Origin: Gemmatimonadaceae bacterium
GTDB taxonomy: Bacteria > Gemmatimonadota > Gemmatimonadetes > Gemmatimonadales > Gemmatimonadaceae
Direction: 5' to 3'
Assembly: GCA_013361335.1 (NCBI GenBank)
Contig: JABFYH010000040.1
Span: 1 to 63,043 of the forward strand
Length of the DNA stretch: 63,043 nt
Shown here: positions 20,089 through 58,601 of the stretch, piece by piece
Position numbering within the stretch: position 1 is the stretch's first letter
Layout: each line of letters opens with the position of its first letter
Program-made: the position numbers and the translations under genes
Notes under the pieces: generated by a model
The model's database searches: none
What the model was told of the DNA's origin: nothing
Seen by the model: the letters and a program-made list of their open reading frames with translations, nothing else

Positions 20089-20173
20089 GCGGTGCGTCGA
20101 GCCCGGTGATCTGCCGCACGCCCGAACGGCACCGGGCTTGCCCTCTGTCGGAGCGAACCTCAGGAGGCGAGTG

Positions 20174-20395
20174 ATGGACGATCAGACGGGCGGCACCGAG
20201 CACGAAGAGATGGAGCGCACGCGGGAGTTGGGCGAGCGCCAGGCAGGTGCGCCGGGTGGGGCGCGGCAGAACGTGCGCATCGCGACCGAGCAGGGGGCAG
20301 TGGCGCGGCCTGGTGGCGCGACCCAGAACTCGGGTGGTGCGATCGAGGGGAATCAGGAGGAGGCGGGGGACGGTCCGGGTCGCGGGGCGGATTGA
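20174..20395 (+). CDS. Small hydrophilic protein of unknown function
   Basis: 73 residues beginning at an ATG six bases after a perfect AGGAGG ribosome site (20162-20167), which makes it a convincing gene despite its size. The composition is rich in Gly, Glu, Gln, Arg and Ala with almost no hydrophobic residues, so it is probably disordered, like stress-related hydrophilins. It follows the Hsp20 gene by 85 bases and ends just before a strong hairpin. No family is recognised. Confidence 0.6.
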   Translation: MDDQTGGTEHEEMERTRELGERQAGAPGGARQNVRIATEQGAVARPGGATQNSGGAIEGNQEEAGDGPGRGAD

Positions 20396-20402
20396 GGCGC
20401 AC

Positions 20403-20479
20403 GGTGAACGGGCGAAGGGCACGCCAGACCAAACCGGCGTGCCCTTTACCGTCTCACCGGTTCACCGTCTCACCGTCTA
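20403..20479. repeat. Composite repeat element, octamer variant, with terminator hairpin
   Basis: Intergenic element after the 73-residue gene. A short left word (ACGGTGA) is followed by a hairpin whose 11-base arms pair perfectly (20415-20425 with 20436-20446), then four inverted octamers related to ACCGTCTC (20448-20479). It belongs to the same family as the elements near 22278, 31916, 52220 and 58479. Confidence 0.65.
20415..20447 (+). terminator. Strong hairpin, probable terminator
   Basis: AAGGGCACGCC pairs without mismatch with GGCGTGCCCTT across a 10-base loop and is followed by a short T-run. It separates the heat-shock pair from the etf genes. Confidence 0.6.
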
Positions 20480-20507
20480 TCCCGCCACCAGCGCCGGCAT
20501 TACACTT

Positions 20508-20525
20508 ATGTGAACTTTTTCACAT
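20508..20525. promoter_or_regulatory. CRP/FNR-type palindrome upstream of etfB
   Basis: ATGTGAA-CTTT-TTCACAT is a perfect inverted repeat and contains TGTGA-N6-TCACA, the exact CRP consensus. It ends 12 bases before the etfB GTG and abuts the GGGAG ribosome site. A TACACT at 20501-20506 could be the -10, which would put the site at the start of transcription and favour repression. A hairpin in the leader is an alternative reading. Confidence 0.6.
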
Positions 20526-20537
20526 GGGAGACCGACG

Positions 20538-21287
20538 GTGAAGATTGCCGTCTGCATAAAGCGCACGCCCGACTCCGAGTCACGCTTCAAGGTCGCGGCC
20601 TCGGCCGCCGGCATCGACGAGACCGGGCTGAAGTTCGACCTCGACGACTTCGCCAGCTACGCCGTCGAAGCGGCGCTCCAGATCAACGAGAAGGGTGGCG
20701 GCGGTGAGACGGTCGTCTATGCCGTCGGGCCGGACTCGGTGCAGGAGTCGCTGCGCAAGGCCATGAGCATGGGCGCCGACCGCGCCGTGCAGCTCAAGGC
20801 CGATCCCGTCGCCGACGGCATCGCCGTCGCCCGCGCCCTGGCCGCGGAGCTCAAGAGCGGCGGCTACGACCTCGTGCTCTTCGGCAAGCACTCCTTCGAC
20901 AATTCCGCCGGCGTCGTCGGGACCGCGACGGCCGAGCTGCTCGGTCTCCCCTGCGTGACCGCGGCGTCGGAGCTGAACGTCAGCGCCGGCAAGGGCACGG
21001 CGCGCCGCGAGCTGGAAGGCGCGGCCGAGCTCGTGGAGTTTCCCCTGCCCGCCGTGGTGACGATCGACGAAGGGGTCGCCCGCCCGCGCTATCCGTCGCT
21101 CAAGGGCATCATGGCGGCGAAGAAGAAGCCGCTCGAGTCGAAGCCGGCGCAGCTCGGTGCCGTGCGCGTCACGATCGCCCGCATGGAGCTTCCCCCCGAA
21201 CGTCCCGCCGGCCGCATTCTCGGCGAAGGGACGGCCGCCATCCCGGAGCTCGTGCGGCTCCTGCAGAACGAAGCGAAGGTGCTCTGA
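20538..21287 (+). CDS. etfB: Electron transfer flavoprotein beta subunit
   Basis: 249 residues from a GTG start. KIAVCIKRTPD at the N-terminus, the AMP-binding region DLVLFGKHSFDNSAGVVG and the recognition-loop segment PRYPSLKGIMAAKKKP are characteristic of EtfB. With EtfA it forms a heterodimer that takes electrons from acyl-CoA dehydrogenases. The stop shares one base with the etfA start (TGATG). A CRP-type palindrome lies directly upstream. Confidence 0.95.
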   Translation: MKIAVCIKRTPDSESRFKVAASAAGIDETGLKFDLDDFASYAVEAALQINEKGGGGETVVYAVGPDSVQESLRKAMSMGADRAVQLKADPVADGIAVARALAAELKSGGYDLVLFGKHSFDNSAGVVGTATAELLGLPCVTAASELNVSAGKGTARRELEGAAELVEFPLPAVVTIDEGVARPRYPSLKGIMAAKKKPLESKPAQLGAVRVTIARMELPPERPAGRILGEGTAAIPELVRLLQNEAKVL

Positions 21288-22273
21288 TGGCGAACGTTCT
21301 GGTGGTTGCGGAGACGCGCAACGGCGAGCTCCGCAAGGTGGCCTTCGAAGCGGTGACGGCGGGCCGCAAGCTGGCCGACGCGAGCGGCGGCGGCGAGGTG
21401 CACGCGCTGCTCGCCGGTCCCGCGGGAATCGGCGGAAAGGCGGAGCAGCTCGCCCGCTACGGCGCCGACGTCGTCATCGTCGTGGAGAGCGCCGACTTCG
21501 CGCAGTTCGCGCGCGAGTCGCTCGCCGCCACGGCGGCCGACCGCGCCCGGGCGGGCCGCTATCGCGCCGTCGTGCTCGGCTTTTCGTCGCAGGGACGCGA
21601 CCTCGGTCCGCGCATCGCCGCGCGGCTCGACGCGCCGATCGCCGCCGACGTCACCGAGCTCGCCGTGACGGGCGACACGATCACGGCGAAGCATCCCGGC
21701 TACGCGAACAAGGTCATCGTGACGCTGACGCTCAGCGGCGCGCCGGTCGTGCTCAGCGTGCGGCCCAGCGCCTTCACCGCCGCCGAGACGCCCAAGGCGG
21801 GACGTGTGGAGCAGGGGCAGGCGACGCCGGCGTCGGGCCCGACGGTCCGCGTAACGGAAGTGAAGGAGGGGGCGAAGGGCCGCCCGGATCTCGGCGAGGC
21901 GTCGATCATCGTGTCCGGGGGCCGAGGGCTCAAGGCCAGGGAGAACTTCAAGCTGATCGAGGAGCTCGCCGACGCCTTCGGCAACGCCGCGGTCGGCGCC
22001 ACGCGCGCCGTGACCGACGACGGCTGGCGTCCGCACGCCGATCAGATCGGACAGACGGGCCGGCAGGTGAGCCCCCAGCTCTACGTCGCCGTCGGGATCA
22101 GCGGCGCGATCCAGCACCTCGCCGGCATGCGCACGTCGAAGACGATCGTCGCGATCAACAAGGACAAGGAGGCCCCGATCTTCAAGGTGGCCGACTACGG
22201 GATCGTGGGCGATGTTCTGGAGGTCGTGCCAGCGCTGACCGCGGCGGTGAAGGAGGCGCGGAAGGGGCACTGA
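21287..22273 (+). CDS. etfA: Electron transfer flavoprotein alpha subunit
   Basis: 328 residues. [27 protein letters not shown] is the usual start, and the C-terminal FAD domain carries [36 protein letters not shown] and [25 protein letters not shown] in this subunit receives electrons and passes them to a quinone reductase, here most likely the membrane Fe-S protein at 24364-26439. Its 3' end is followed after 4 bases by a tandem heptamer array. Confidence 0.95.
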
Positions 22274-22277
22274 ACCG

Positions 22278-22340
22278 CCGTGAACCGTGAACCGTGAACC
22301 GTGAGCCGTGAACCGTGAACGGTCAACCCTGAACGGTGAC
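22278..22340. repeat. Six-unit heptamer array (CCGTGAA), half element
   Basis: Six 7-base units, CCGTGAA with one CCGTGAG, occupy 22278-22319 and are followed by degenerate words and the small stem GTGAC-GGC-GTCAC. The array begins 4 bases after the etfA stop. The hairpin core and right arm of the full element are missing. Confidence 0.7.
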
Positions 22341-22384
22341 GGCGTCACGTCCCTGATCTCATCCTCAACGCACGGAGCTGGGCC

Positions 22385-23329
22385 ATGTGGCGCTTCCCGC
22401 TGGGCTTGATCGCGCTCGTCGTGTCGTCTTCCACAGCGTCGCGCGACTCGGCGCCGCGGCCGCCGGTCGCTCCGGCGTCCGTCGTCGGGCGGTGGGACAT
22501 CGCGATCGATGCCCCCGATCGACCGCTCCCGTCGTGGCTCGAGGTCCGGCCGTCCGGCAACGGCTACCTCGTCGGACAGTTCGTCGGCATCGTCGGGAGC
22601 GCGCGACCGATCGCGCGCGTCGAGTTCGCCGACGGCGCGCTGCGCTTCGCCATTCCGCCGCAGTGGGAGCAGGGCGCGGGCGACCTGCAGGTCGAGGGAC
22701 GGCTCACTGGTGACGTCCTCGCCGGCACGATGATCTTTCCCGACGGCACGCGCCGCACCTGGACGGGGAAGCGCGCGCCCGCGCTTCTTCGTACGGGGAC
22801 GCCGCGGTGGGGCGCCCCGATGCGGCTCTTCAACGGCACCGACCTCACGGGCTGGCACGCGCTGGGCCCGAATCAATGGCGGGCCGTGAACGGCGTGCTC
22901 CAGAGCCCGAAGTCGGGCTCCAACATCGTCACGGACCGTACCTTCACCGACTACCAGCTCCACCTGGAGTTCCGCTACCCGAAGGGGAGCAACAGCGGTG
23001 TGTACCAGCGCGGCCGGTACGAGGTGCAGATCGAGGACAGCGTCACGACCGAGCCGCAGAACGACCTGCTCGGGGGTGTGTACGGATTCATCGCGCCGAG
23101 CGTCGTGATGGCGAAGCAGCCCGGCGAGTGGCAGACGTACGACATCACGCTCGTCGGCCGGATGATCACCGTGGTGGCGAACGGGAAGACCGTGATCTGC
23201 AACCGTGAGATCCCCGGCATCACCGGCGGCGCGCTCGACAGCAACGAGGGCGAGCCGGGTCCGCTGCTCCTTCAGGGGGACCACGGACCGATCGAGTATC
23301 GGAACATCACGATCCGACCAGGGCGCTGA
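22385..23329 (+). CDS. DUF1080 (3-keto-disaccharide hydrolase-type) protein, exported
   Basis: 314 residues with a short hydrophobic N-terminus that can act as a signal peptide. The first 130 residues form a beta-rich domain I do not recognise. The C-terminal half is a typical DUF1080/concanavalin-like domain: MRLFNGTDLTGWHALG, SNIVTDRTFTDYQLHLEFRYPKGSNSGVYQRGRYEVQIED and LLLQGDHGPIEYRNITIRP. Some relatives hydrolyse 3-keto-glycosides. The adjacent isomerase-like gene, on the opposite strand, is a frequent partner in sugar catabolism clusters. Confidence 0.83.
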   Translation: MWRFPLGLIALVVSSSTASRDSAPRPPVAPASVVGRWDIAIDAPDRPLPSWLEVRPSGNGYLVGQFVGIVGSARPIARVEFADGALRFAIPPQWEQGAGDLQVEGRLTGDVLAGTMIFPDGTRRTWTGKRAPALLRTGTPRWGAPMRLFNGTDLTGWHALGPNQWRAVNGVLQSPKSGSNIVTDRTFTDYQLHLEFRYPKGSNSGVYQRGRYEVQIEDSVTTEPQNDLLGGVYGFIAPSVVMAKQPGEWQTYDITLVGRMITVVANGKTVICNREIPGITGGALDSNEGEPGPLLLQGDHGPIEYRNITIRPGR

Positions 23330-23362
23330 GCGCCGCGCCCCCGCCCACCTCGCGCCGCCCGG

Positions 23363-24223
23363 CTACACGTCGCAGATCTCGAATGCCTGACGGAGCGACG
23401 CGAGCGCCGGCTCCCGCGCCGGCACGAACTCCTGGGCGACGAAGCCGGTGAAGCCGAGGTCGGCGATCGTCTGCATGACGCGCCGGTAGTTGAGCTCCTG
23501 GGTGTCGTCGATCTCGTGACGCCCGGGAACGCCGCCGGTGTGGAAGTGCGCGATGTGAGCGATGTTCGCGCGGATCGTGGCGATGACGTCGCCCTCCATG
23601 ATCTGCATGTGGTAGATGTCGTACAGCACCTTGAGCCGCGGCGAGCCCACGCCCTGGACCACCTGCGCGCCCCACGCGGTGTGGTCGGCCTGATAGTCGG
23701 CGTGGTCGACCTTGCTGTTGAGGAGCTCGAGGCAGAGCGTGACACCATGGCGCTCCGCCACCGGCGTGATGCGCTTGAAGCCGGTGATGCAGTTGGCGAT
23801 CCCTTCGCCGTCCGACATGCCGCCGCGGTTGCCGCTGAAGCAGACGATGTTGGGCACGCCCGCGGCGGCAGCGCGCGGGATCATGCGCTCCGCGGCGGCG
23901 ACGAGCCGATCGTGCTGATCGGGACGGTTGAACCCGACCGGGATGGTGCCGAAGCCGTTGGCCATCGCGCACACCATGCCGTGGCGCGCAGGCACGGGCC
24001 AGTCGGCCTCGTCGAGCAGCTCCACCGACCGGTAGCCGATCCCCTTGGCGGCCTCGCACAGGTCGTCGATCGGGATCTTGCCGTAGCACCAGCGCGAGAC
24101 CGAGTGCTTGAGCCGTCCGGCATGGCGGCCGGGCCCGCGCCCGCCGCCGGCTCGCGCGGCGGGGGCCAACAGCTGTGCCGCCGCCGCGGCACCGAAGGCG
24201 CGCAGGATGTCTCGACGCTGCAT
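23363..24223 (-). CDS. Hydroxypyruvate isomerase-like TIM-barrel protein, Tat-exported
   Basis: 286 residues of the xylose-isomerase-like (AP endonuclease 2) family. The N-terminus MQRRDILRAFGAAAAAQLLAPAA has the twin Arg of a Tat signal, so it is probably folded with its metal before export. LKHSVSRWCYGKIPIDDLCEAAKGIGYRSVELL and LKVLYDIYHMQIMEGDVIATI, with IAHFHTGGVPGRHEID, match hydroxypyruvate isomerase-type barrels. The ATG at 24223 is chosen for the signal. Substrate is uncertain; export argues against a simple cytosolic hydroxypyruvate role. Confidence 0.82.
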   Translation of the reverse strand: MQRRDILRAFGAAAAAQLLAPAARAGGGRGPGRHAGRLKHSVSRWCYGKIPIDDLCEAAKGIGYRSVELLDEADWPVPARHGMVCAMANGFGTIPVGFNRPDQHDRLVAAAERMIPRAAAAGVPNIVCFSGNRGGMSDGEGIANCITGFKRITPVAERHGVTLCLELLNSKVDHADYQADHTAWGAQVVQGVGSPRLKVLYDIYHMQIMEGDVIATIRANIAHIAHFHTGGVPGRHEIDDTQELNYRRVMQTIADLGFTGFVAQEFVPAREPALASLRQAFEICDV

Positions 24224-24363
24224 GTCTCTCCTCGAAGTCGACGCCGACCATTCTACGCCATGGCCGGGCGCGGACAAGAGCGGTTGTACCCCTGACGTCA
24301 CGTCCGTAGCTTCCGCTCGCGTGCGCCACGAGGCGCGCGGCCCACCGCACGGAGCGCCAGCTG

Positions 24364-26439
24364 ATGACCGTAGGGAGCGTCGTTTTCCTCTTCGTCCTCA
24401 CCCTCGCCGCGGGGTTCTTCGCCCTGAACGTCCAGCGGCTCGTGAGCTACCTCCGGGTGGGCGTGGCGGAGAACCGGACGGACCACGCGCTGACGCGCAT
24501 CCGGAACGTGCTGACGATCGGCATCGCGCAGAAGAAGATTCTCCGCGATCCCGTGGCCGGTCCGATGCACGCGCTGATCTTCTGGGGCTTCATGGTACTG
24601 ACCGCCGGCACGGTGGAGATCCTGATCCAGGGAGTGTTCCCCAGCTTCTCGTACCGGCTGCTGCTCCCCGACGTGCTCTACCGCGGCTACTCCAACTCGC
24701 AGGACGTCTTCGCGCTGCTCGTCGTCGGCGCGGTCGGCTTCGCCCTCTACCGCCGGCTGGTGCTGCATCCGCGGCGGCTCGAGGGGGACAACCTCGAGCA
24801 CACCGACGCCCTGATCATCCTGAGCATGATCATGGGGCTGATGGTCACCCTGCTCCTCGCGACCGGCTGCCTGCTCGTGATCGAGCCCACGGCGTTCGGC
24901 AACGAGAAGGTCGTTTCGCGGCCGCTGGCGCTGGCGCTCGGCGCGGTGCTGTCGCCGACCGCGGCGACGACGGGTTTCCACGTCTTCTGGTGGGCCCATG
25001 CGCTGCTGATCCTCACCTTCCTCAACTACCTCCCCTACTCGAAGCACCTGCACGTCGCGTCGTCGCTCATCAACGTCTACTTCTCCAACACGAGTGGCCC
25101 CGGCATCCGCGGCGCGATGCGGCCAATGGATCTCGAGGCGGACGTCGAGCAGTTCGGCGCGAGCGACGTGGAGCACCTCTCCTGGAAGAACCTGCTCGAC
25201 GGCTACTCGTGCACAGAATGCGGGCGCTGCACCTCCGCCTGTCCGGCCAACATCACCGGGAAGCCGCTCAGCCCGCGCAAGATCATCGTCAACACGCGCC
25301 AGCGATTGATGGAGAAGGCGCCCGTCGTCACCGGCGACCGGATGGAGTTTCTCCGTCCCGCGCTGCTGCACGGCGAGGGTGCGGACGCCGGCGCGACGAC
25401 GGTCGAGGAGGTCATGGGCCACCGCCTGCTCGACACGTACATCACGGAGGACGAGCTCTGGGCCTGCACCAGCTGCCGCGCCTGCGTCGTCGAATGTCCG
25501 GTCTCGATCGACCAGCTCGACGTGATCAACGCGCTCCGGCGCGAGCTGGTCCTCACCGAGTCGCGCTTCCCCGAGGAGCTCCAGCCGGTGTTCCAGTCGC
25601 TCGAGCGCAACGGCTCGCCCTGGGCCTTCCAGGCGGCGGATCGTGCGGCGTGGGCTGAGGGGCTCGACATCCCGACGATGGCCGACCTGCACGCGCGCGG
25701 CGAGACGCCGGACGTCCTGTTCTGGGTCGGCTGCATGGGGTCGTTCGATGACCGGGCGAAGAAGATCACCGTCGCCGTCGCGCGGATCCTCCAGGCGTGC
25801 GGCGTACGGTTCGCCATCCTGGGGCAGGAGGAGACCTGCCACGGCGATCCGGCACGCCGCATGGGCAACGAATACCTCTACCAGATCCTCGCCAAGGGCA
25901 TGGTCGAGACGCTGGACCGCTACGAGGTGCGCACGATCATCACGCACTGCCCGCACTGCTTCCACCAGCTCGGCAACGAGTTCCCGCAGCTCGGCGGGCA
26001 CTACGAGGTGATCCATCACTCGACGTACATCGAGCGCCTGCTGCAGGAGGAGCGCGTGCCGCTCAAGTCCGCCGATGGCCAGCGCCTCACCGTCGCGTAC
26101 CACGACAGCTGCTATCTCGGCCGCTACAACGACGTCTACGACGCGCCCCGGCAGACGATGAAGCGCGCCTTGCCGGTGATCGATCTCGTCGAGCCGCCAC
26201 GGACGAAGGATCGCGGCCTGTGCTGCGGCGCCGGCGGCGGACGGATGTTCATGGAGGAGCGTACCGGCAAGCGCATCAACATCGAGCGCACGGAAGAGCT
26301 TCTCGCCACCGGCGCGGACACGATCGCCGTGGCCTGCCCCTTCTGCATGACGATGATGACCGATGGCGTCAAGGCGAGCGGGTCCGAGGTCCCCGTGCTC
26401 GACATCTCGGAGGTCGTCGCCGGACAACTGCGAGCCTAG
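24364..26439 (+). CDS. Membrane Fe-S oxidoreductase, EtfD/HdrD-like ETF:quinone oxidoreductase
   Basis: 691 residues. The first 240 form five or so helices of a NarI/HdrE-like haem b domain (His in the helices, [14 protein letters not shown]). Two 4Fe-4S motifs follow, [13 protein letters not shown] and [13 protein letters not shown]. Two CCG domains close the chain ([26 protein letters not shown]). This is the architecture of mycobacterial EtfD, which accepts electrons from EtfAB and reduces menaquinone. Location 2 kb after etfBA supports that role; it is still inference. Confidence 0.85.
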
Positions 26440-27137
26440 TCGGTCCCCCAGCGCAGCCGGTAGAGCGTGATCGTCTGTCGGATGTCACCCTCCGCATACG
26501 CGTGCGCCGCTGAACCGCTGACCACCAGACCGCGCGCCTGGCATTCCTTCAGGAAGTCCGCGCAGGCGATCCGCCCCGGATCCGCCACGATCGCTTCGCC
26601 GCCGCGCCGGAGCGTCCCGGCGATGGCGCCGGCGACCAGTGCCGCGTAGCGTGGCTCGTACAGCACGTCCGAGGTCAGCACGACGTCGAATCTGCCGAGG
26701 TCCTCCGGCAGCGCCGTCCAGTCGACCATGCGCGTCGCGATGGTCCTCCCGGTCGACTCGGCGACGTTCAGCGTGGCGAAGAGCAGCGCGTCGTCGTAAT
26801 AGTCGGTCGCCGTCACCAGCGCGCCGGCGAGCGTCGCCCCCACCGCGACGAGTCCGAGCCCGCATCCCAGCTCGAGCACGCGCAGGCCGGCCACCCGCAT
26901 CTCACGTACCTCGCGCGCGAGGATCTGCGCGGAGGGCCAGAGATCCGCCCAATACGGCAGCCGCTCGTCCTTCACGTAGTCGTCTTCGCTGATCAGCTCA
27001 TCGGCGTTGGCGGGACTCAGCAGCTCGATGTCCCGGCCGCCAAGCTGCAGAACGCGCCGCGTGGTGCGGAAGCGACGCTCGAGGTCGGCGCGCAACGCCT
27101 CGACGTCGACAGGCTGAGGCTTCACGACGTGCGTCAT
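26436..27137 (-). CDS. Class I SAM-dependent methyltransferase
   Basis: 233 residues. The SAM-binding motif I is [19 protein letters not shown], with [16 protein letters not shown] after it and [15 protein letters not shown] as motif IV. The preceding [18 protein letters not shown] is typical of the METTL21/nicotinamide-methyltransferase-like group, which often methylate protein lysines. Substrate unknown. It is convergent with the EtfD-like gene; the two stops share the palindrome CTAG at 26436-26439. Its start overlaps the moeA stop by 4 bases. Confidence 0.82.
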
Positions 27138-28402
27138 CCGGGAAAGCGGACGCTCCCCTTCAGGTCACCGTCCAACATCACCGCCGAGGCCAGCGTCCCC
27201 GCGGCGTAGCTCGCGCGGTCACCGGGCAGCACGAGCAGGCCATCCGCCAGCGCCATCGACGTCAGCATCCCCGAGCTCTGCGCACCGGTCAGCGTCGCCA
27301 CGAGACGCCCATCCTCCTCTACGGCGAACACGGCGCGAAGATAGTGGGTGAGCGGCGCCGCGAGCTCCACGTTCTGGCCGAGCACGACCTGCACGGTCGG
27401 CCGGTGCGGGCAGCGGTGACCGGCGAGGACGCGGAGCAGCGGCCGCGCGAACAGCTCGAAGGTCACGAGCGCCGACACCGGGTTCCCCGGAAGGCCGAGC
27501 CACGGCACGCTGAACAGCCGACCGAACCCGAGCGGCGCGCCTGGTCGCATGCGCACCCGCCAGAGCGACAGCTCCCCGCCGAGCGTGCCGACCACTGCGC
27601 GAGTATAGTCGAAGTCGCCGACCGACACCCCGCCTGACGTGAGCACCATGTCGCAACCGTCGGCCCTCCGCAGACAGTGCGCGAGCGCGCCGGGATCGTC
27701 GGGGGCGATGCCAAGGGGCACGGGCTCGCCTCCCGCCGCCTCGACGGCGGCGGCGAGCGAATAGCTGTTCGACGACACGATCCGCTCGCCGGCCTGCACC
27801 TCGGCGAACCGCTCGAGGGGAACCAGCTCGTCGCCGGTAGCCAGCACGGCCACACGCGGCCGCCGGTGCACGAAAGGCGCGGCACACCCGACGGAGGACA
27901 GCACGCCCACGTGTGCGGCCGCGATCGCCGTGCCCGCCGTGAGGACGACGCTGTCGGCACGAATGTCTTCTCCTCGCGCCCTCACGTTGCGGCCCGCGTC
28001 GCGGTCGTCGCGCACCATCACCGTCCCCGGGTCGGCGCCGCCGTCGGTGTCCTCGACGCGCACCACCGAGTCCGCACCCGGCGGCACCGGCGCGCCGGTC
28101 ATGATGCGCGTCGCCTCACCCGGTCCGACGTCGCGCGTGCCGCGCCGCCCTGCCGCGATCGTCTCCACCACCCGCAGTCGCACCGGGCGCTCGGCGGATG
28201 CGCCGGCTACGTCGGCGCCGCGAAGCGCGAAGCCGTCCATGCTCGCGTTGTTCCACGGCGGCAGCGTGATCGTCGAGACCACGTCTCGAGCGAGCACGCG
28301 GCCGAGCGCACGCTCCAGCGTCACCTCCTCTCCCGGCAGCGGCTCGACGCCGGCGAGCATGTGCCGGCTCGCGTCGGCGACGCCGAGTCGCGTGACGGTC
28401 AC
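27134..28402 (-). CDS. moeA: Molybdopterin molybdenumtransferase MoeA
   Basis: 422 residues from a GTG that overlaps the dacB stop (TAGTG). MoeA inserts molybdate into adenylylated molybdopterin. Conserved parts: LPPWNNASMDGFAL, ATRIMTGAPVPPGADSVVRVED, VAVLATGDELVP, MVLTSGGVSVGDFDYT, and WLGLPGNPVSALVTFELF. A longer reading frame exists upstream but would lie inside dacB, so the GTG is preferred. It shares the strand with mobA and fdhE but is separated from them by dacB. Confidence 0.92.
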   Translation of the reverse strand: MTVTRLGVADASRHMLAGVEPLPGEEVTLERALGRVLARDVVSTITLPPWNNASMDGFALRGADVAGASAERPVRLRVVETIAAGRRGTRDVGPGEATRIMTGAPVPPGADSVVRVEDTDGGADPGTVMVRDDRDAGRNVRARGEDIRADSVVLTAGTAIAAAHVGVLSSVGCAAPFVHRRPRVAVLATGDELVPLERFAEVQAGERIVSSNSYSLAAAVEAAGGEPVPLGIAPDDPGALAHCLRRADGCDMVLTSGGVSVGDFDYTRAVVGTLGGELSLWRVRMRPGAPLGFGRLFSVPWLGLPGNPVSALVTFELFARPLLRVLAGHRCPHRPTVQVVLGQNVELAAPLTHYLRAVFAVEEDGRLVATLTGAQSSGMLTSMALADGLLVLPGDRASYAAGTLASAVMLDGDLKGSVRFPG

Positions 28403-29919
28403 TACCGGTCCAGCCGGAGTCCGGCGAGCCACGCGCCGAGCGCGTCGGTCACCTGATCGACGCGCCGCGTCGGCACCGTGTAGTTGTTGGCGAGCGCGCT
28501 GAAGAGCAGCATCCGACCATCGGCGGTCGTGACGTAGCCGGAGAGTGAACGAGCCTTGTCCAGCGTCCCCGTCTTGGCGTGGAGGTTTCCCTCGGCCGGT
28601 GTGCCCTTCATGCGATTGCGGATCGTGCCGTCGACGCCGGCGATCGGCAGCGCGTCGTAGAAGAGCCGGAAGTCCGGAGACCGGCGCATCACGTCGAGCA
28701 CCGTGACGATGGTCCGCGGCGACACGTAGTCGTGCCGTGAGAGCCCACTCCCGTCGCGCACGACGAAGCCGTCGGGCGGCGCGCCCCACGCGAGCAGCTG
28801 GCGGCTCACGACCTGCTGCGCGCTGTCGGCCGTGCCCACGCCGGTCTTCGCGAGCGCGAGCGACTTGAAGAGGATCTCGCCGATCTGGTTCTGCGACGGC
28901 TTCTCGAACAGCGGCATGATGTCGCGCAGCGTCGGCGACCACATCCCGGCGAGCGAGTCGAGGCGCGCCGTGGTGTCCGATGGGGCCTCGTCGACGATGA
29001 TGCCCTGCGCGCGGAACGCCTCCCGCATCGCGGCGACGTAGGCGCCGCTCTGATCGCGGAAGGCGATCTCCTCGACCACGCTATCGCCGGCGGCGATCGT
29101 GCCGGCGACGAGCACGCCCGTGTGCGACGAGTCCTGTCCGACGGTGATCCTCGGCCGTGCCGCGAGGGAATCGGCGGCCGACGCGCCCGCGGGGGCACGG
29201 GCGACCGTCCGCGCGCGGACGATCAACGTCGGGTAGGTCGTCGCCGGCCGGGTGACGGCGCGGACGGAGTCGCCGGCCTTCGCGCCGCCGTACACGACGA
29301 CCTCGCTGAAGCCCTCGTTGAAGTACAGCGCGTCGACTCCGGCCGAATACGCCGCGTCGAGGTCGTCGAACGACCACCCGAATCCCAGCGGGGAATCGGT
29401 GAAGGGCGACGCCGCCGCCACGATGCGGCCCCTGATCCGCGTGATGCCGCGCGCGCGGAGCGAATCGCCGAGCGCACGCAGCGGAGCGAGAGCGTCGCCC
29501 GCGTGTGCGTGCGCGCTGACGGTCGGATCGCCCTGCCCGCGCACGACGAGATCGCCCTCGAGCACACCCTCGCGCACCGCACCGCGTGCCCAGAGCGTGG
29601 TGGGCCACCGATAGTCGGGGCCGAGCTGCGTCAGCGCGGTGGAGCCGGTGAGCAGCTTCTGGTTGGACGCGGGCATGAACAGCTTGTCCGCGTTGTGTGA
29701 GTACAGCGTCTCCCCGCGCCCCGGATCCACGATGAGGATCCCCCAGTGCATGCTGCGGAACTCTGGAGCGCTGATGAGCGAGTCGACCAGACGGCGCAAC
29801 GCGGCTCGACTGTCTGCCGGCGCGCCCGGGGTGGCGGTGGTCGCGACCGGTGCGAGCGATGCGCAGCCGGCCAGCGAAGTGAGCACTGCGAGACGAAGCA
29901 GCGGAAGAGAGCGGTGCAT
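28402..29919 (-). CDS. dacB: D-alanyl-D-alanine carboxypeptidase/endopeptidase (PBP4 type)
   Basis: 505-residue S13 penicillin-binding protein that trims peptidoglycan peptides in the periplasm. The lipoprotein signal ends LTSLAGC (Cys19). The catalytic tetrad SNQK has Ser85 and Lys88, the second motif is SGL in RDGSGLSRHDYVSP, and the third is HAKTGTL. Between the first two lies the large insert typical of PBP4. It sits between mobA and moeA, an unexpected place, and the moeA start overlaps its stop. Confidence 0.9.
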   Translation of the reverse strand: MHRSLPLLRLAVLTSLAGCASLAPVATTATPGAPADSRAALRRLVDSLISAPEFRSMHWGILIVDPGRGETLYSHNADKLFMPASNQKLLTGSTALTQLGPDYRWPTTLWARGAVREGVLEGDLVVRGQGDPTVSAHAHAGDALAPLRALGDSLRARGITRIRGRIVAAASPFTDSPLGFGWSFDDLDAAYSAGVDALYFNEGFSEVVVYGGAKAGDSVRAVTRPATTYPTLIVRARTVARAPAGASAADSLAARPRITVGQDSSHTGVLVAGTIAAGDSVVEEIAFRDQSGAYVAAMREAFRAQGIIVDEAPSDTTARLDSLAGMWSPTLRDIMPLFEKPSQNQIGEILFKSLALAKTGVGTADSAQQVVSRQLLAWGAPPDGFVVRDGSGLSRHDYVSPRTIVTVLDVMRRSPDFRLFYDALPIAGVDGTIRNRMKGTPAEGNLHAKTGTLDKARSLSGYVTTADGRMLLFSALANNYTVPTRRVDQVTDALGAWLAGLRLDR

Positions 29920-29987
29920 GGCAGCCGGCGGAAAGGAGTGCGCGCGAGAGCGGGAAAGATGGGTACCGCGCGCGCCCGGGTCGAGCG

Positions 29988-30608
29988 TCAGCCGGCAGAT
30001 GGATCGACGGTGCCGCCCAGCGCGGCCAGCGCGTCGCGCGTGTCGACGCTCGTGAACAGTCGCGTCGGCGAGCCGAAGCGGGCGAGCGCGCCCTCGCCGA
30101 GCACCTCAGCGCCTGGCAGGGTCTCGAGCATCGCGGCGGCTCGCCGCTCGCCCCGCTCGAGCAGGGCGAGGCAGGGGGCCAGCGCTTCGGGCCCGTACCA
30201 GGCGCACAGCGGCTCGGGCTGCCGTGCGGCGCCGTGCACCGGCACGACGGCGCTCGCCCCCCGTTCACCCCGGCGGCGTAGCTCGGCGAGCAGCTCGGCC
30301 GTCACGTACGGCATGTCCCAGGCGACGACGAGCACGGAAGCGCCGGCCGCGGCGGTGAGCGCGGTCGCGAGCCCGGCCAGCGGTCCGACGTCGCGCACCT
30401 CGTCGGCGACGATGCGCAGCCCCGGGAACCAGGCCGCCGCCCGTGGGTCGTTGGCGACGACGAGCTGGCTCGTCGTGGCGCCCCTCAGGGCGGCGAGAGC
30501 GAGATCGGCGATCCGGACGCCGCCCAGCCGCGCGAGCCCTTTGGGGTGTCCCCCAAAACGACGCGCGGCGCCCCCCGCCAGGAGGACGCCGACGCACGAC
30601 GAGCTCAC
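29988..30608 (-). CDS. mobA: Molybdenum cofactor guanylyltransferase
   Basis: 206 residues. VGVLLAGGAARRFGGHPKGL is the GTP-binding loop of MobA, with VADEVRDVGPLAGLATAL and VVAWDMPYV as further signatures. It adds GMP to the cofactor for DMSO-reductase-type enzymes such as formate dehydrogenase, which fits the adjacent fdhE. The start is taken as the GTG 12 bases after the fdhE stop, because the loop must lie near the N-terminus and no ATG fits. The second Arg-Phe-Gly replaces the more common Arg-Met-Gly. Confidence 0.85.
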   Translation of the reverse strand: MSSSCVGVLLAGGAARRFGGHPKGLARLGGVRIADLALAALRGATTSQLVVANDPRAAAWFPGLRIVADEVRDVGPLAGLATALTAAAGASVLVVAWDMPYVTAELLAELRRRGERGASAVVPVHGAARQPEPLCAWYGPEALAPCLALLERGERRAAAMLETLPGAEVLGEGALARFGSPTRLFTSVDTRDALAALGGTVDPSAG

Positions 30609-30619
30609 CGCCCGATCGG

Positions 30620-31384
30620 TCAGATCCGCAGCCCGCGCTGCTCGGCCGCGAGATCCAGCTCCGTCGTCAGGGCGCGCTCCACGATGAACGACTCCACCCC
30701 GCGGCGCGGACGCTCCTTGAGAAAGCGTCCGCAGGCGTTGCACATCACGAGGTCGTAGTCGAGCTCCGGGTTGCCGATGCGTGCGATCGCCGGAGAATCG
30801 TCGGTGTCGCAGCCCAGGCAGCCGTCGCGTCGGGCGCTCCACTGCGAATCGCAGCGGGCACACACGAGGATGCGCTGGGTGCCGCGCTCCACGAGCGCGA
30901 TGTCCGGCGAGCCGCCGCAGCATGGGCACGCGGTGCGCGTCCAGGCCTTCCACGTCGCCGCCGGACCGACGCGCGCGCTCGCCGCGCGGAGCAGCGCGTT
31001 GCCGACGACGATCGCCGCCTGGCGGGCGACGCGCCGGCGCGGATCGCGCGGCGTCCGATCTCCGGTGAACCACCCGCTCACCAGATCGTCCACGTCGAGG
31101 TCGCCGTCGAGCAGGGCCCGGCGGTCGTCGTTCGAGATGAACCCCGACACCTCGAAGGCGTCGACGACGCGGGCGAAGCGTGGGCGCAGGTCGCCGCACG
31201 ACCGAAGCACGCGGAGGGCGTCGTAGCCGATCTGGCCGTTGCGGATTCGTCGTTGCGCCTCGTCGGCATCGACGGCGGGGACACAGTCGGCGAGCAGCTC
31301 GGCGTGAACGTGCAGCACCGGCGCGAACTGCTCGGCGAGCGTCGTACGGACAGTGGTGGGGCGGGCGGGTGACGCGGTCGGCAA
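30620..31384 (-). CDS. fdhE: Formate dehydrogenase accessory protein FdhE
   Basis: 254 residues. Four Cys pairs of the FdhE rubredoxin-like fold are present: CPCCGGSP, VCARCDSQW, CLGC and MCNACGRFLK. FdhE helps maturation of respiratory formate dehydrogenases. Together with mobA it suggests a molybdenum or tungsten formate dehydrogenase elsewhere, since none is in this window. Its own stop is followed closely by mobA, indicating one transcript. Confidence 0.88.
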   Translation of the reverse strand: MPTASPARPTTVRTTLAEQFAPVLHVHAELLADCVPAVDADEAQRRIRNGQIGYDALRVLRSCGDLRPRFARVVDAFEVSGFISNDDRRALLDGDLDVDDLVSGWFTGDRTPRDPRRRVARQAAIVVGNALLRAASARVGPAATWKAWTRTACPCCGGSPDIALVERGTQRILVCARCDSQWSARRDGCLGCDTDDSPAIARIGNPELDYDLVMCNACGRFLKERPRRGVESFIVERALTTELDLAAEQRGLRI

Positions 31385-31410
31385 GGCTCCTCCAGAGGCG
31401 CGGGTACGTG

Positions 31411-31427
31411 GCGGGCCCTCTGCCCGC
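31411..31427 (-). other. Small hairpin between queD and fdhE
   Basis: GCGGGC pairs with GCCCGC across the 5-base loop CCTCT in the 98-base gap. No T-run follows; it may be a weak terminator or an attenuating hairpin. Confidence 0.22.
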
Positions 31428-31482
31428 GGTGCTCCGCGCCGCCTCTAGCACGACCGAGGTCGGTGAAGGTCACTCGCCGGCC

Positions 31483-31902
31483 TCAGCCGGGCTCGTACGT
31501 CGCGCTGAGCGTGGAATCCTCCGCGACCGTCACCCGCGTGACTCGTGCCGCGTTGCCAAGCGCACCCTGCACGCGCTCGGCGATGAAGCGCGCGAGATTC
31601 TCCCCCGTCGGCACCAGGCGTCCGTCGGCGAACTCGGGCACGTCGAGGTTGATGTTCGCGTGGTCGAGCCGAGCGCGCACCTCGCGCTGCAGCACGTCGT
31701 CGAGGACGCCGAGGTCGGCGACGAAGCCGGTCACCGGATCGACCGTGCCGGTGACCGTGACGTCGCAGACATAGCTGTGTCCATGGTAGTTCGGCCGCGC
31801 GCACAGCCCGAAGGTGGCCGCGTTGCGCTCCTCGCTCCACTCGGCGATGCGATAGCGGTGCGCCGCCGCGAAGGCGACGCGACGGGTGAGGAAGGTGGGC
31901 AT
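31483..31902 (-). CDS. queD: 6-carboxytetrahydropterin/6-pyruvoyl-tetrahydropterin synthase family
   Basis: 139 residues. Zinc ligands are visible in FAAAHRY and NYHGHSY, the catalytic Cys in FGLCARPNYHGH, the catalytic His in LDHANIN, and the Glu in PTGENLARFI. QueD makes carboxytetrahydropterin for queuosine. Human-type PTPS activity is an alternative, but no other pterin or queuosine gene is present here. A heptamer array sits 14 bases before its ATG and no ribosome site is visible. Confidence 0.83.
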   Translation of the reverse strand: MPTFLTRRVAFAAAHRYRIAEWSEERNAATFGLCARPNYHGHSYVCDVTVTGTVDPVTGFVADLGVLDDVLQREVRARLDHANINLDVPEFADGRLVPTGENLARFIAERVQGALGNAARVTRVTVAEDSTLSATYEPG

Positions 31903-31915
31903 CGAGAAAAGTTAA

Positions 31916-32036
31916 CCGTGATCCGTGATCCGTGATCCGTGAACCGTGATCCGTGACGACGAGGGGCACACCGGACTCGCTCCGATGTGCCCCTCACGTC
32001 CCTCGCCGCCCTTACGGTTCACCGTTCACGGTTCAC
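31916..32036. repeat. Full composite repeat element: 6 heptamers, hairpin, 3 inverted heptamers
   Basis: Six CCGTGAW units (31916-31957), a hairpin with 15-base arms (31961-31975 and 31981-31995, one mismatch), and three inverted words related to ACGGTTC (32014-32034), ending next to the stop of the BON-domain gene. The same plan is repeated at 58479-58600. Confidence 0.75.
31961..31995. terminator. 15-base hairpin core of repeat element
   Basis: GAGGGGCACACCGGA pairs with TCCGATGTGCCCCTC over the loop CTCGC. It could stop transcription coming from the BON gene before queD. A T-run is lacking. Confidence 0.5.
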
Positions 32037-32037
32037 G

Positions 32038-32556
32038 TCAGTGCGCTTCCCCCATCTCTTCGGGGCCGGCATCGCTGCCGCGATACCCCTCCGGCGTCGG
32101 TGACTCGGGCGGGTTCCAGCTCAACCCCTCGGAGATCGACCGCTGGAAGTCGGTCGTGCCGGCGAGGTCCTCGTCCGTCGATGCCGCCAGCGCGACCTCG
32201 TCGCTCTGCGGAACCGGAACGTCGCCGAGCAGCGTGCCGGCGCGCAGCTCCTCGTCAGCGAGGTGCTCGTCGATGTCGAGCGGGCTCTCGGCACGCCGCA
32301 GCGGATCGACGACCAGGTCGTTCGTGTAGTCGACGAGCCCCAGCACGTCGGTGAGCACGTGCTCCGCCACGCGCCGCTCGCCGTCGGTGCCGACCCGGCC
32401 GGCCAGCACGACGTTCCCGTCCTGGACCCGCACCGTGATGTCGTCGATGTCGAGCGCCGTATGCTCGGCGAGCCGCTCCCGTACCAGATCGCGCAGCTCG
32501 CGGTCATCCAGCTCGTCGATGTCGTCGATGTTTTCGTAGTCGCGCTCGCGTGCCAT
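32038..32556 (-). CDS. BON-domain protein
   Basis: 172 residues, very acidic. A single BON domain (LRDLVRERLAEHTALDIDDITVRVQDGNVVLAGRVGTDGERRVAEHVLTDVLGLVDYTNDLVV) lies at about 20-85; BON domains bind phospholipid or membranes. There is no signal peptide, and the C-terminal 85 residues are acidic and probably flexible. The domain call is firm, the role is unknown. Confidence 0.75.
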   Translation of the reverse strand: MARERDYENIDDIDELDDRELRDLVRERLAEHTALDIDDITVRVQDGNVVLAGRVGTDGERRVAEHVLTDVLGLVDYTNDLVVDPLRRAESPLDIDEHLADEELRAGTLLGDVPVPQSDEVALAASTDEDLAGTTDFQRSISEGLSWNPPESPTPEGYRGSDAGPEEMGEAH

Positions 32557-32601
32557 GATCGCCGCCGCCGTCGAGGGTGAATCGCCGGCGGCTCGGCCGG
32601 A

Positions 32602-33288
32602 TCAGCGCCCGAAGAGGTACGACACGCCCACCGTCAGCGCGGTGTGATGCGTGTAGAACGACCGGGGCGTGGGATCCGAGAGCACCGACGTGTTGTCGGA
32701 GGCCTTCCGATAGTACGAGTCCGGGTACGACACCTTGAACACGCGGTCGGTGACGTCGGCGCGCAGCTGCAGCCGTCCCCCGGGCACGAACTTCAGTCCG
32801 CCGCCGAAGGTGAATGCAAAGGGGGTGCCGAACGAGAACCCCGAGGAGTCGTCCTTGGCGCTGCTCGAGACCAGACCGAGTCCGCCACGGAGCTGCGGCA
32901 CGAGATGGTTCCAGCTCTTGCGGCCCGTGAGATCGAGCGCGAGCGCGACGTCCGCCGCATACACCGGCGCGCTCTCCGTCCCCAGACTTCTGGTGGCCAG
33001 CGGCTTCGCCGGGTCGAGCACGTTGCGCTCGGCGAAGAGTCGGGTGAAGTCCGCGCTCAGGGCGAGCGGGCCGGCGAGGTTGATCTCGTAGCGCAGGCCG
33101 GTCACCGCCGCGCTCCGCGGCTCCACCCCCGCGGGATCGTGGCGCGCCCGCGTGTAGCCGAACAGCCAGGTGAATTCCTGCTTGTGCTCGAGGTCCCGAT
33201 ACGGGCTGTGCGCGGGGTCGTGACCCACCTGCGCCGCCGCGGGACCAGCGGCCAGCAGTGCCACGACGCCGTACAGAAGTGCCTTCAC
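32602..33288 (-). CDS. Outer-membrane beta-barrel protein
   Basis: 228 residues with signal MKALLYGVVALLAAGPAAA. The mature protein alternates beta strands (LRYEINLAGPLALSADFTRLFAE, FAFTFGGGLKFVPGGRLQLRADVTDRVF) and ends ALTVGVSYLFGR, close to the aromatic-ended last strand of outer-membrane barrels. It sits 33 bases downstream of gpmI on the same strand. No specific transport or adhesion function is recognisable. Confidence 0.7.
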   Translation of the reverse strand: MKALLYGVVALLAAGPAAAQVGHDPAHSPYRDLEHKQEFTWLFGYTRARHDPAGVEPRSAAVTGLRYEINLAGPLALSADFTRLFAERNVLDPAKPLATRSLGTESAPVYAADVALALDLTGRKSWNHLVPQLRGGLGLVSSSAKDDSSGFSFGTPFAFTFGGGLKFVPGGRLQLRADVTDRVFKVSYPDSYYRKASDNTSVLSDPTPRSFYTHHTALTVGVSYLFGR

Positions 33289-41544: not shown

Positions 41545-41640
41545 CGGACGAACGAGCAGCGGATGAGCGGATGAGCGTGACTGCGGTTGACGCGGCACCG
41601 CTCGTCCGTTCCTCCGTTCATCCGCTCCGCCGACAGTTCT
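41545..41640. repeat. Imperfect inverted words (GCGGATGA / TCATCCGC)
   Basis: GCGGATGAGCGGATGAGCG on the left and TTCATCCGC with CCGTTC words on the right flank about 30 bases. The plan resembles the heptamer elements but with different words; related status is uncertain. Confidence 0.35.
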
Positions 41641-52204: not shown

Positions 52205-52219
52205 GAGACGGACGACAGA

Positions 52220-52258
52220 CCGTCAATCCGTCAGACCGTCAGACCGTCAGACCGTCTT
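52220..52258. repeat. Tandem octamer array (CCGTCAGA)
   Basis: Four 8-base units, CCGTCAAT then CCGTCAGA three times, plus a partial fifth, between two convergent genes. The array contributes the stop codon of the 72-residue gene on the minus strand. It is related to the CCGTGAW arrays. Confidence 0.7.
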
Positions 52259-55925: not shown

Positions 55926-58484
55926 ATGCCGGGAGGAGCTGTGCAGCTCGACTCACTCACGATCGCGCTGCCGGACCGCTATCGCATTCAGCGCGAGATC
56001 GGCCGCGGTGGGATGGCGGTAGTCTATCTCGCCGAAGACGTGCCGCACGGGCGGGACGTCGCGGTGAAGGTGCTGAGCCCGGAGCTCACGTCGTCGATCG
56101 ACGCCGAGCGCTTTCGCCGCGAGATCCAGATCGCGGCGCGGCTCAGCCACCCGAACATCCTGCCGGCGTACGATTCGGGGAGCGCCAACGGCGCCCTCTT
56201 CTACGTCATGCCGTTCGTGCAGGGCGAGTCCCTGCGGTCCCGGCTGGACCGCGAGTCGCAGCTCCCGATCGAGGAGGCGATCGCGATCACCTGCGAGGTG
56301 GCGGACGCGCTCTCGTACGCGCACTCGCAGGGTGTGGTGCATCGCGACATCAAGCCGGAGAACATCCTGATCCAGAGCGGGCATGCCGTGGTCGCCGACT
56401 TCGGCATCGCGCGCATCGTGGAGGATTCGGGGGCGCAGAAGCTCACGGCGACGGGACTGTCCATCGGGACGGCGGCGTACATGAGCCCCGAGCAGTTCGT
56501 CGGCGAGAAGCTCGATGGCCGGAGCGACATGTACTCGCTCGCCTGCGTGCTGTACGAGATGCTCGTGGGGCAGGTGCCCTTCACCGGGCCGAACGCGATG
56601 GCGATCATGGCGCGCGCGACGATGCAGGCGGTCCCGTCGATCCGCCTCGTCCGGAGCACGGTGCCCGAGGACGTCGAGGCGGTGATCTTCCACGCCCTGG
56701 AGAAGACGCCGGCCGACCGCTTCGCGACGATCGACGAGTTCAAGGACGCGCTGCTGAGCGGCAATCGCGGCATGACCTCCGCCTTCGCGAAGAGCACCAA
56801 CATGTACACGGCGGCGTACCGCGCCGCGCATGGCCGGCCGGCCTGGAACCGCCGCCGCAGCATGATGGGCGCGGCCGTGGTCGTGCTCCTCGCCGCGAGC
56901 AGCGTCGTGGCGGCGCGCGGGATCCTCGGCAAGCAGTCCAACACGGCGGCGGGGATCATCAATCCTGACGCCGATCCGAACCACCTCGGCGTGCTCTACT
57001 TCGCCGACGAGAGCAAAGACGGGTCGCTGCGCTTCCTCGCCGACGGGCTGACGGAGTCGCTGATCGACGAGCTATCGCGGGTGCCGGCGCTCGACGTCGT
57101 GTCGAAGAACGGCGTGCGGCAATACCGGAGCCTGTCGTTCGACGGCGTGCCCGATTCGATCCAGCGGACGCTGAAGATCGGCACGGTGGTGCGCGGCGAG
57201 GTGGAACCGACCGCCACGGGGGCGCGGGTGACGGTGCGGCTCATCGAGGCGCTGAGCGGCAGCGAGATCACGCGCGACCGGTTCGACGTCGACACGGCGA
57301 ACGCGATGGCGGCGCAGGGCGAGCTCTCGCGCCGGGTGGCCGAGTTCCTCCGCAAGCATCTCGGCGAGGACGTCAAGCTGCGTGAGTCGAGGGCGGGCGC
57401 GAGCAGCCCGGAAGCGTGGACGCTCGTGCAGCGCGCCGAGAAGACGCGGAAGGACGCGGATTCGCTGCTCGCGGCGCGCCAGGACTCGGCGGCGCTCGCG
57501 CGGCTCACCGACGCGGACCACCAGCTCGCCCGCGCCGCGCAGCTCGACGCGCGCTGGGTGCAGCCGTGGCTCACGCGTGCGGCGATCGCGTATCAGCGGG
57601 CGCGGGCGACGCGCGAGCAGCCCGCGCTCGCGGAGGCCGCGGTGGACAGCGGGATGGCGTTCGTCGATCGCGCGCTGCAGGTGGACGTCCGGTCAGCGGA
57701 TGCGCTGGAGCTCCGCGGCAAGCTCGAGTTCCTGCGCGTGGACCAGCGCATGGTGCCGGAGGGCCCGCAGTACGCCCGACTGCTCGACGCGGCCGAGAAG
57801 GATCTGCGGGCGGCGGTGCAGGAGAACTCCTCGCAGGCGGGTGCCTGGGCGACGTTGAGCCGGCTCGCGTACAAGCGACAGAGCCCGCAGGAGGCGCTGC
57901 TCGCGGCGCAGGCGGCGTACAAGGCGGACGCCTATCTCTCGAACGCGCGCGAGATTCTCGCGCGGCTGTTCTGGACGTCGCACGACACCGAGAACTTCCC
58001 CGACGCGGCGCGCTGGTGTGCCGAGGGGCGTCGGCGCTTCCCGGCCGACGTGTTCTTCGTGGAGTGCCGGCTCTGGATGCTGACGACAAAGAACATGCAG
58101 CCGGTGCCCGCGGACGCGTGGCGGTGGGTCGATACGCTGAAGGCGATCACGCCCCCGAACCGGTGGGAGTACGAGCGGCGAATGGGCGAGATGCTCGTCG
58201 CCGGCGTGCTGGCGAAGGCGGGGATGCGCGACAGCGCGGCGCACGTGCTCGACCGCGCCAAGCCGACGCCGGATCTCGATCCGGAGCGGGAGCTGCTGGG
58301 GACGCAGGTGGTGGTCCGACTCTTCCTCAAGGACTACGACCGCGCGATGGACGACCTGACGGCCTATCTCGCCGCGCATCCCGATCATCGCAAGGGGCTG
58401 GCGACGAACACGTCGCCCTGGTGGCGCGATCCGGCGGTGCAGGAGAATCGACGGTTCAAGGCGCTGATCGCGGGGGCACGGTGA
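55926..58484 (+). CDS. Membrane Ser/Thr protein kinase with TolB-like and helical repeat region
   Basis: 852 residues. The kinase domain has the glycine loop GRGGMAVVYLAED, Lys48, HRDIKPEN (Asp141), DFG (158-160) and YMSPEQ. A membrane helix lies at about 313-332. The outer half starts with a TolB-like segment (LGVLYFADES, LADGLTESLIDELSRV) then TPR-like helices to the end. Such receptor kinases are numerous in Gemmatimonadota. A GTG five codons in, preceded by GGAGG, is an alternative start. Its stop lies inside the first unit of a heptamer array. Confidence 0.88.
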   Translation: MPGGAVQLDSLTIALPDRYRIQREIGRGGMAVVYLAEDVPHGRDVAVKVLSPELTSSIDAERFRREIQIAARLSHPNILPAYDSGSANGALFYVMPFVQGESLRSRLDRESQLPIEEAIAITCEVADALSYAHSQGVVHRDIKPENILIQSGHAVVADFGIARIVEDSGAQKLTATGLSIGTAAYMSPEQFVGEKLDGRSDMYSLACVLYEMLVGQVPFTGPNAMAIMARATMQAVPSIRLVRSTVPEDVEAVIFHALEKTPADRFATIDEFKDALLSGNRGMTSAFAKSTNMYTAAYRAAHGRPAWNRRRSMMGAAVVVLLAASSVVAARGILGKQSNTAAGIINPDADPNHLGVLYFADESKDGSLRFLADGLTESLIDELSRVPALDVVSKNGVRQYRSLSFDGVPDSIQRTLKIGTVVRGEVEPTATGARVTVRLIEALSGSEITRDRFDVDTANAMAAQGELSRRVAEFLRKHLGEDVKLRESRAGASSPEAWTLVQRAEKTRKDADSLLAARQDSAALARLTDADHQLARAAQLDARWVQPWLTRAAIAYQRARATREQPALAEAAVDSGMAFVDRALQVDVRSADALELRGKLEFLRVDQRMVPEGPQYARLLDAAEKDLRAAVQENSSQAGAWATLSRLAYKRQSPQEALLAAQAAYKADAYLSNAREILARLFWTSHDTENFPDAARWCAEGRRRFPADVFFVECRLWMLTTKNMQPVPADAWRWVDTLKAITPPNRWEYERRMGEMLVAGVLAKAGMRDSAAHVLDRAKPTPDLDPERELLGTQVVVRLFLKDYDRAMDDLTAYLAAHPDHRKGLATNTSPWWRDPAVQENRRFKALIAGAR

Positions 58485-58600
58485 ACCGTGAACCGTGAAC
58501 CGTGATCCGTGATCCGTAACGGCGAAGGGCACACCGGACTGGGTCCGATGTCCCCTTCCCGCTTCCAAACGCCACTTCTGTTCACCGTTCACGGTTCACG
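58479..58600. repeat. Full composite repeat element: 6 heptamers, hairpin, 3 inverted heptamers
   Basis: Six units (CGGTGAA, CCGTGAA twice, CCGTGAT twice, CCGTAAC) at 58479-58520, a hairpin with 15-base arms (58524-58538, 58544-58558, two mismatches), and three inverted units GTTCACS at 58580-58600. The first unit overlaps the kinase stop and the last touches the convergent M48 stop. Confidence 0.75.
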
Positions 58601-58601
58601 A

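Follow-up and report, generated by a model that had tools for sequence, protein, structure and literature searches.

Tens of gene ends in the genome of a soil bacterium of the Gemmatimonadaceae carry short tandem arrays of the heptamer CCGTGAW, often set as inverted pairs around a palindromic hairpin. In related species the corresponding gene ends are empty, hold the hairpin bare, or are filled by arrays of other units. We lean slightly towards reading this as a two-layer 3'-end element, in which an old bidirectional stem would have been overlaid by recently spread, species-private inverted arrays.

The stretch of DNA analysed here (the window; 63,043 nucleotides) is contig 1 of a 230-contig draft Gemmatimonadaceae MAG, G000, of 3.75 Mb and 84% completeness. 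About 1.17 Mb of the 3.75 Mb was examined in stretches partly chosen around arrays, and a home-made codon-usage caller found 1069 genes in this ~1.17 Mb (91% coding).

Copies in the window and across the genome

A preliminary description of the window had picked out two composites, each made of six heptamers, a hairpin and three inverted units, together with a six-unit half copy after etfA. All three are present as described, the composites at 31916-32037 and 58479-58601 with a linker between hairpin and inverted units (Table 1). A further hairpin copy beside ACCGTCTC octamers had been overlooked. The CCGTGAW dimer pattern matches 20 times in the window with at most two mismatches, against 1.9 expected in shuffles. 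Octamers also occur elsewhere in the window. At 52216-52256, an array of CAGACCGT (CCGTCAGA) fills a convergent gap directly behind a stop codon and represents a further family of such arrays. At 41558-41577, AGCGGATG octamers and their inverted partners occupy a tandem gap; they belong to the ATGAGCGG family, which at other G000 sites encloses the same core hairpin.

Table 1. Arrays, hairpins and linkers in the window (plain positions) and core sites elsewhere (contig or locus given)
Feature	Location	Strand	Remarks
Left array, six CCGTGAW units, last CCGTGAC	31916..31957	+	dimer pattern matches
Core hairpin GAGGGGCACACCGGAC-TCG-CTCCGATGTGCCCCTC, 16-nt arms, 3-nt loop	31961..31995	.	covariance model 65.9 bits
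Long linker ACGTCCCTCGCCGCCCTTACGG, 22 nt, a form of dispersed ACGCYTTCRRACGCCYYTACGG	31996..32017	+	
Right array, three inverted heptamers	32018..32037	-	abuts TGA 32038-32040 (- strand), stop of BON-domain gene 32038-32556
Left array, six units	58479..58520	+	first unit CGGTGAA provides TGA stop of kinase gene 55941-58484
Core hairpin GAAGGGCACACCGGAC-TGG-GTCCGATGTCCCCTTC	58524..58558	.	covariance model 65.7 bits
Long linker CCGCTTCCAAACGCCACTTCTG	58559..58580	+	
Right array, three inverted heptamers	58581..58601	-	abuts stop of M48 peptidase gene 58602-59609 (-)
Six-unit array 3' of etfA (stop 22271-22273)	22278..22319	+	without hairpin or inverted partner; degenerate units continue to 22339
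Fourth window hairpin copy GAAGGGCACGCCAGAC-CA-AACCGGCGTGCCCTTT	20414..20447	.	gap between HSP20 gene and etfB; fold z -7.1
Mixed octamer/heptamer array ACCGTCTC..GGTTCACC	20448..20478	+	adjoins the 20414 hairpin
Hairpin in GGTGAGAC arrays	C17:4149		
Hairpin in ATGAGCGG-type octamers	C38:16765, C38:27676, C139:7449, C6:53024, C13:53754		
Hairpin in GGACAGTC/CCGTCTGA octamers	C154:7034		
Hairpin bare, no arrays	C208:10170		
GTCATCCC...GGGATGAC core	L074 2967-3279; L069 360-536; L310, L315, L316 (G002)		

Exact CCGTGAW dimers match 121 times genome-wide, while a reversed control pattern gives no match, and the ~1.17 Mb examined holds about 65 heptamer-array clusters and about 40 hairpin copies. 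The true copy number is probably higher, because contigs C15, C26, C27, C64, C85 and C6 end inside or just past an array and the element thus seems to break the assembly. The left part of the consensus, from about 60 places read, is (CCGTGAW)n - CCGTRACGRC - GAAGGGCACACCGGAC NNN GTCCGRTGTGCCCTTC. The right part follows the hairpin as ACGCYTTCRRACGCCYYTACGG - (TTCACSG)n, and the full element is found in either orientation. A constant plan of six plus three units had been proposed. It is ruled out by the arrays of 52 intergenic regions, which run from 2 to 9 units, mostly 4-6 (5 units, 30; 4 units, 22; 6 units, 18), with left and right counts that differ by locus. The preliminary description had also suggested searching the genome and its relatives; that search yielded many further copies which kept their position at stop codons but not their unit number.

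Some palindromic CCGTGAW arrays have no hairpin, and others enclose a different core, such as the GTCATCCC...GGGATGAC of L074. This second, interchangeable core (~100-170 nt) is found in CCGTGAW arrays of G000 and in ACGAGTA arrays of the relative G002. At C6:38591-38705 of G000 (L034 2992-3106), CCGTGAT heptamers run straight into TCTCACTG octamers, a hybrid of two families.

Position at gene ends and stop-codon register

The contact with stop codons noted earlier is stronger than had been claimed. The 52 intergenic arrays comprise 25 in convergent, 26 in tandem and 1 in divergent gaps, whereas 135, 722 and 140 such gaps are available (Fisher p 5e-10). Since some stretches had been selected for arrays, the comparison was rerun on whole contigs not picked for them, where 8 arrays are convergent, 5 tandem and 0 divergent (p 5e-5). 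Within tandem gaps the median distance from the array to the stop of the preceding gene is 1 nt and to the start of the following gene 42 nt (p 0.0014). The TGA of the gene falls in the heptamer register in 37 of 52 cases, where one in seven is expected (p 3e-20), and still in 21 of 35 when stops inside the first perfect dimer are excluded (p 5e-10). A G directly precedes the TGA in 35 of the 37 in-register cases, as against 219 of 695 overall. The typical junction is thus ...GTGA followed by WCCGTGAW. The generality of the register was checked in G008, where one of seven stops in a small sample is in register, so the register may be a property of the recent spread in G000. A bias of core orientation relative to transcription in tandem gaps (~10 against 3) was not significant and was dropped.

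The unit contains TGA and its length is not a multiple of three, so three or more units place a stop in every reading frame of each of the two converging genes, from which translation termination may benefit. Stop triplets occur in the units of 8 of ~14 families, with ~14% expected, a post hoc comparison on our own grouping, and a tendency of array units to contain a stop triplet is only suggestive. The arrays could also lie where they do because insertions at 3' ends are tolerated, not because they have a function there.

The hairpin and its orthologous slots

The hairpin is separable from any one kind of array. Most of its 45 matches in the DNA scanned (~40 in G000, a few in G008) lie inside CCGTGAW arrays, and in G000 it occurs in at least four array families or bare, so these heptamers are not obligatory. 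The same hairpin is present in the Gemmatimonadaceae/Gemmatimonadetes MAGs CAN_BIN14 (G008), RYN_356 (G005) and RYN_358 (G018), within arrays of GGTAGGTC in G008, GAAGACAG in G005, and TGCAGTGA and GGAATCAG in G018. In G018 (L246, L250) it is also enclosed by longer inverted repeats that are not tandem, GGTTCCTCGG...CTTCAGTCCGCG, which seem to be a further carrier element. A covariance model finds matches in all ten genomes of the genus and in G018, which belongs to another genus; beyond these, each genome yields a few single hairpins that resemble terminators. Two-sided changes affect 8 of 16 stem pairs, against 2.3 in shuffles, which suggests that pairing is maintained, with the caveat that the copies are related and that palindrome correction could give the same pattern.

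Orthologous gene ends show how variable the arrays are. At the 58479 slot, between the kinase and M48 peptidase genes, the two stops are 3 bp apart in G008, an empty site at which the kinase C-terminus (LIAGAR-stop) is identical. The queD slot (31903-32037) measures ~22 bp in G008 and is filled by inverted ACGAGTA heptamers in G002, inverted CGGTTNN heptamers in G007 and inverted GACAGGAG octamers in G005; in G000, G002 and G007 the array ends ~13 nt before the queD start, with similar flanking bases. The hairpin at C4:2155 is orthologous in three species and lies within CCGTGAW arrays in G000, within GGTAGGTC arrays in G008 and bare in G001. It is likewise bare in G008 at the C121:8529 slot, and at C140:5219 the G005 hairpin has a different outer inverted repeat. 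The C6:38591 slot of G002 holds ACGAGTA arrays around the GTCATCCC core, and the C13:55712 slot has GGAATCAG arrays plus hairpin in G018 and a short palindromic CCGTGAA array in G000. Because orthologous gene ends keep the hairpin bare or within different arrays, and because the covariance model matches every genome of the genus, it is older than the arrays.

CCGTGAW trimers number 42 in G000, 111 in G008 and 0 in the other eight congeners, with one match each in two further relatives (149 genomes searched). ACGAGTA trimers number 137 in G002 and 0 in its nine congeners. Dimers of GGTAGGTC are found in G008 (29) and G003 (4), those of GGGGATGA in G007 (14) and G002 (3), and neither in the rest of the genus. 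By these counts each tested unit is for the most part restricted to one or two species. A dominant unit that is missing from most sister species calls for exchange between loci, and similar hairpins with different short repeats at the same gene ends make the repeats appear rewritten genome-wide around gene ends. The view that the element is a selected or mobile piece of non-coding DNA at 3' ends is thus well supported by its many copies, convergent bias, stop junctions, empty orthologous sites and compensatory stem changes.

Possible function, spread and precedent

A terminator or RNA 3'-end role, guessed at in the preliminary description, is plausible. A GC-rich stem is present at gene 3' ends, as in intrinsic terminators. 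The segment 31912-32040 folds at -75.8 kcal/mol on the transcribed strand (z -8.3) and at -67.6 kcal/mol on the other, and in 12 of 16 tandem copies the hairpin is more stable when read in sense than in antisense (p 0.018; the copies are related and the counts not independent). A U-tract is not present after the stem, where CCCTTCGTCGTT or CCCTTCACGC follows instead, and neither the 20414 nor the 31961 hairpin was called when 20000-33000 was scanned for consensus terminators. A bidirectional 3'-end stem is suggested because the element sits in convergent gaps that its arrays often fill, has terminator-like single relatives, retains pairing and, in those 12 of 16 tandem copies, folds better on the transcribed strand. 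An empty orthologous slot counts against such a role, since the species that has it evidently needs no element there.

In the two-layer reading, an old palindromic hairpin, GAAGGGCACACCGGAC-N3-GTCCGGTGTGCCCTTC, would form a bidirectional 3'-end stem between convergent or tandem genes and would act as a transcription terminator and/or an mRNA 3' protector. The second layer would be paired inverted short tandem arrays with a 7-8 nt unit largely private to the species, which would have reached tens of gene ends per genome in recent times, usually around such stems. The array would join the gene at the stop codon (...G-TGA, then ACCGTGAACC), so that the stop lies within its first unit or overlaps it, and left and right arrays would pair into a longer stem. 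For the spreading, we propose template switching: cores that are conserved while their arrays are exchanged, linkers common to many loci and junctions at GTGA are the traces it would leave. A strand stalled at the palindrome might switch to another copy through hairpin or array homology, copy the flanking array and resolve at GTGA microhomology at the stop codon, which would replace the arrays in concert and leave the core in place.

The main rival to template switching is an enzyme that moves the whole unit. On this account, which we hold to be somewhat unlikely, the element would be a dispersed repeat of MITE-like or SDR-like type, either neutral or selfish and served by an enzyme in trans; it would insert widely, be purged everywhere except behind stops and have no role of its own. 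It would fit the ~25 near-identical composites of ~110 nt, linkers included, the empty orthologous sites, and the single array in divergent gaps, as purging from promoters would leave it. The inverted arrays also amount to terminal inverted repeats like those of MITEs; array length varies, some copies have one arm missing, and no clear target duplication was seen beside the empty sites. Purging alone, however, is not expected to yield a stop-codon register, and at orthologous slots the arrays change but the hairpin persists. The transposase search covered PF01797 (RAYT-type Y1), which has no match in the 84% complete genome although controls were detected. On that result a REP/RAYT identity was rejected; the element resembles REP/BIME in being palindromic, dispersed, 3' of genes and structured as RNA, but differs in its 7-mer arrays and its sequence.

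Inverted pairs at gene ends are known from neisserial uptake sequences, as in uptake-sequence terminators. Arrays that were binding sites for a nucleoid protein, an RNA-binding protein or uptake machinery could explain a unit that is uniform within a species and inverted at gene ends. Unrelated units in the same kind of place in G000, and a unit that can be missing from sister species, make this very unlikely. Purely local replication slippage, with heptamers expanding at each stop and inverted partners arising by fold-back copying, is highly improbable and already disfavoured. Arrays do often begin on the gene's own TGA, and among long simple repeats heptamers are the most frequent in many bacterial genomes (Mrazek, 2007, cited in PMC4679880), but local events without exchange between loci are insufficient for a unit that one species carries at tens of loci and its congeners lack, with linkers and core common to many loci.

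The preliminary description knew of no named family for the element. This agrees with an Rfam search, which gave no family at gathering score, but the closest known kind, the GGGAATC heptamer arrays of Xanthomonas, stands near to it: these have many copies, form inverted pairs near stops and are rare in divergent gaps (Rehm et al., 2015, PMC4692102). Number, 7-nt intergenic unit, inverted pairing, stop proximity and scarcity in divergent gaps are all shared. The G-rich Xanthomonas arrays are discussed as G-quadruplex sequences, their proposed rationale (PMC4692102), a reading ruled out here since the CCGTGAW unit has no G-run (no GGG). Unlike them, the Gemmatimonadaceae arrays also enclose a conserved hairpin, have units private within one genus and keep a stop register. 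The next closest kind is the small dispersed repeats (SDRs) of Nostoc, the nearest precedent for a short dispersed hairpin inside tandem heptamers. Elhai et al. (cited in PMC4390886) reportedly described them in 2008 as short dispersed hairpins embedded in tandem heptamers, and they are said to be cyanobacterial and 21-27 nt long. By that description they differ from the G000 element, which has a 35-nt core plus linkers and arrays inverted around that core at gene 3' ends. TAACTGA heptamers of Beggiatoaceae, Cyanobacteria and Bacteroidetes are dispersed intergenic arrays limited to some species too, but are direct repeats, mostly just upstream of starts in the genome studied (PMC4679880), whereas CCGTGAW arrays are inverted and lie at gene 3' ends. 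Bidirectional intrinsic terminators share the GC-rich stem between convergent genes, and the bare one-locus relatives of the hairpin look terminator-like; the hairpin differs in being without a U-tract, conserved in sequence and multi-copy. No Gemmatimonadota precedent for such arrays was found in the literature searched, which likewise does not describe a conserved core with swapped arrays, private units at orthologous slots or a stop register.

Taken further, and with considerable doubt on our part, gene 3' ends in this genus might be docking slots for fast-replaced 'stop cassettes'. The palindromic core would direct homology-driven, transposase-free copying of species-private 7-8 nt arrays from locus to locus, with resolution at the stop codon. 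The arrays of a genome would thereby all be rewritten together, each giving all-frame stops on both strands and a longer 3' stem. The geometry of the Xanthomonas arrays recurs in a distant phylum with units that have no G-runs, which suggests that what matters is the length of the unit, the pairing of inverted arrays and the junction at the stop codon. Orthologous slots whose arrays differ between sister species provide a bacterial example in which dispersed short repeats undergo concerted evolution, and the spread of tiny non-coding repeats without a known transposase becomes testable by comparing closely related isolates.
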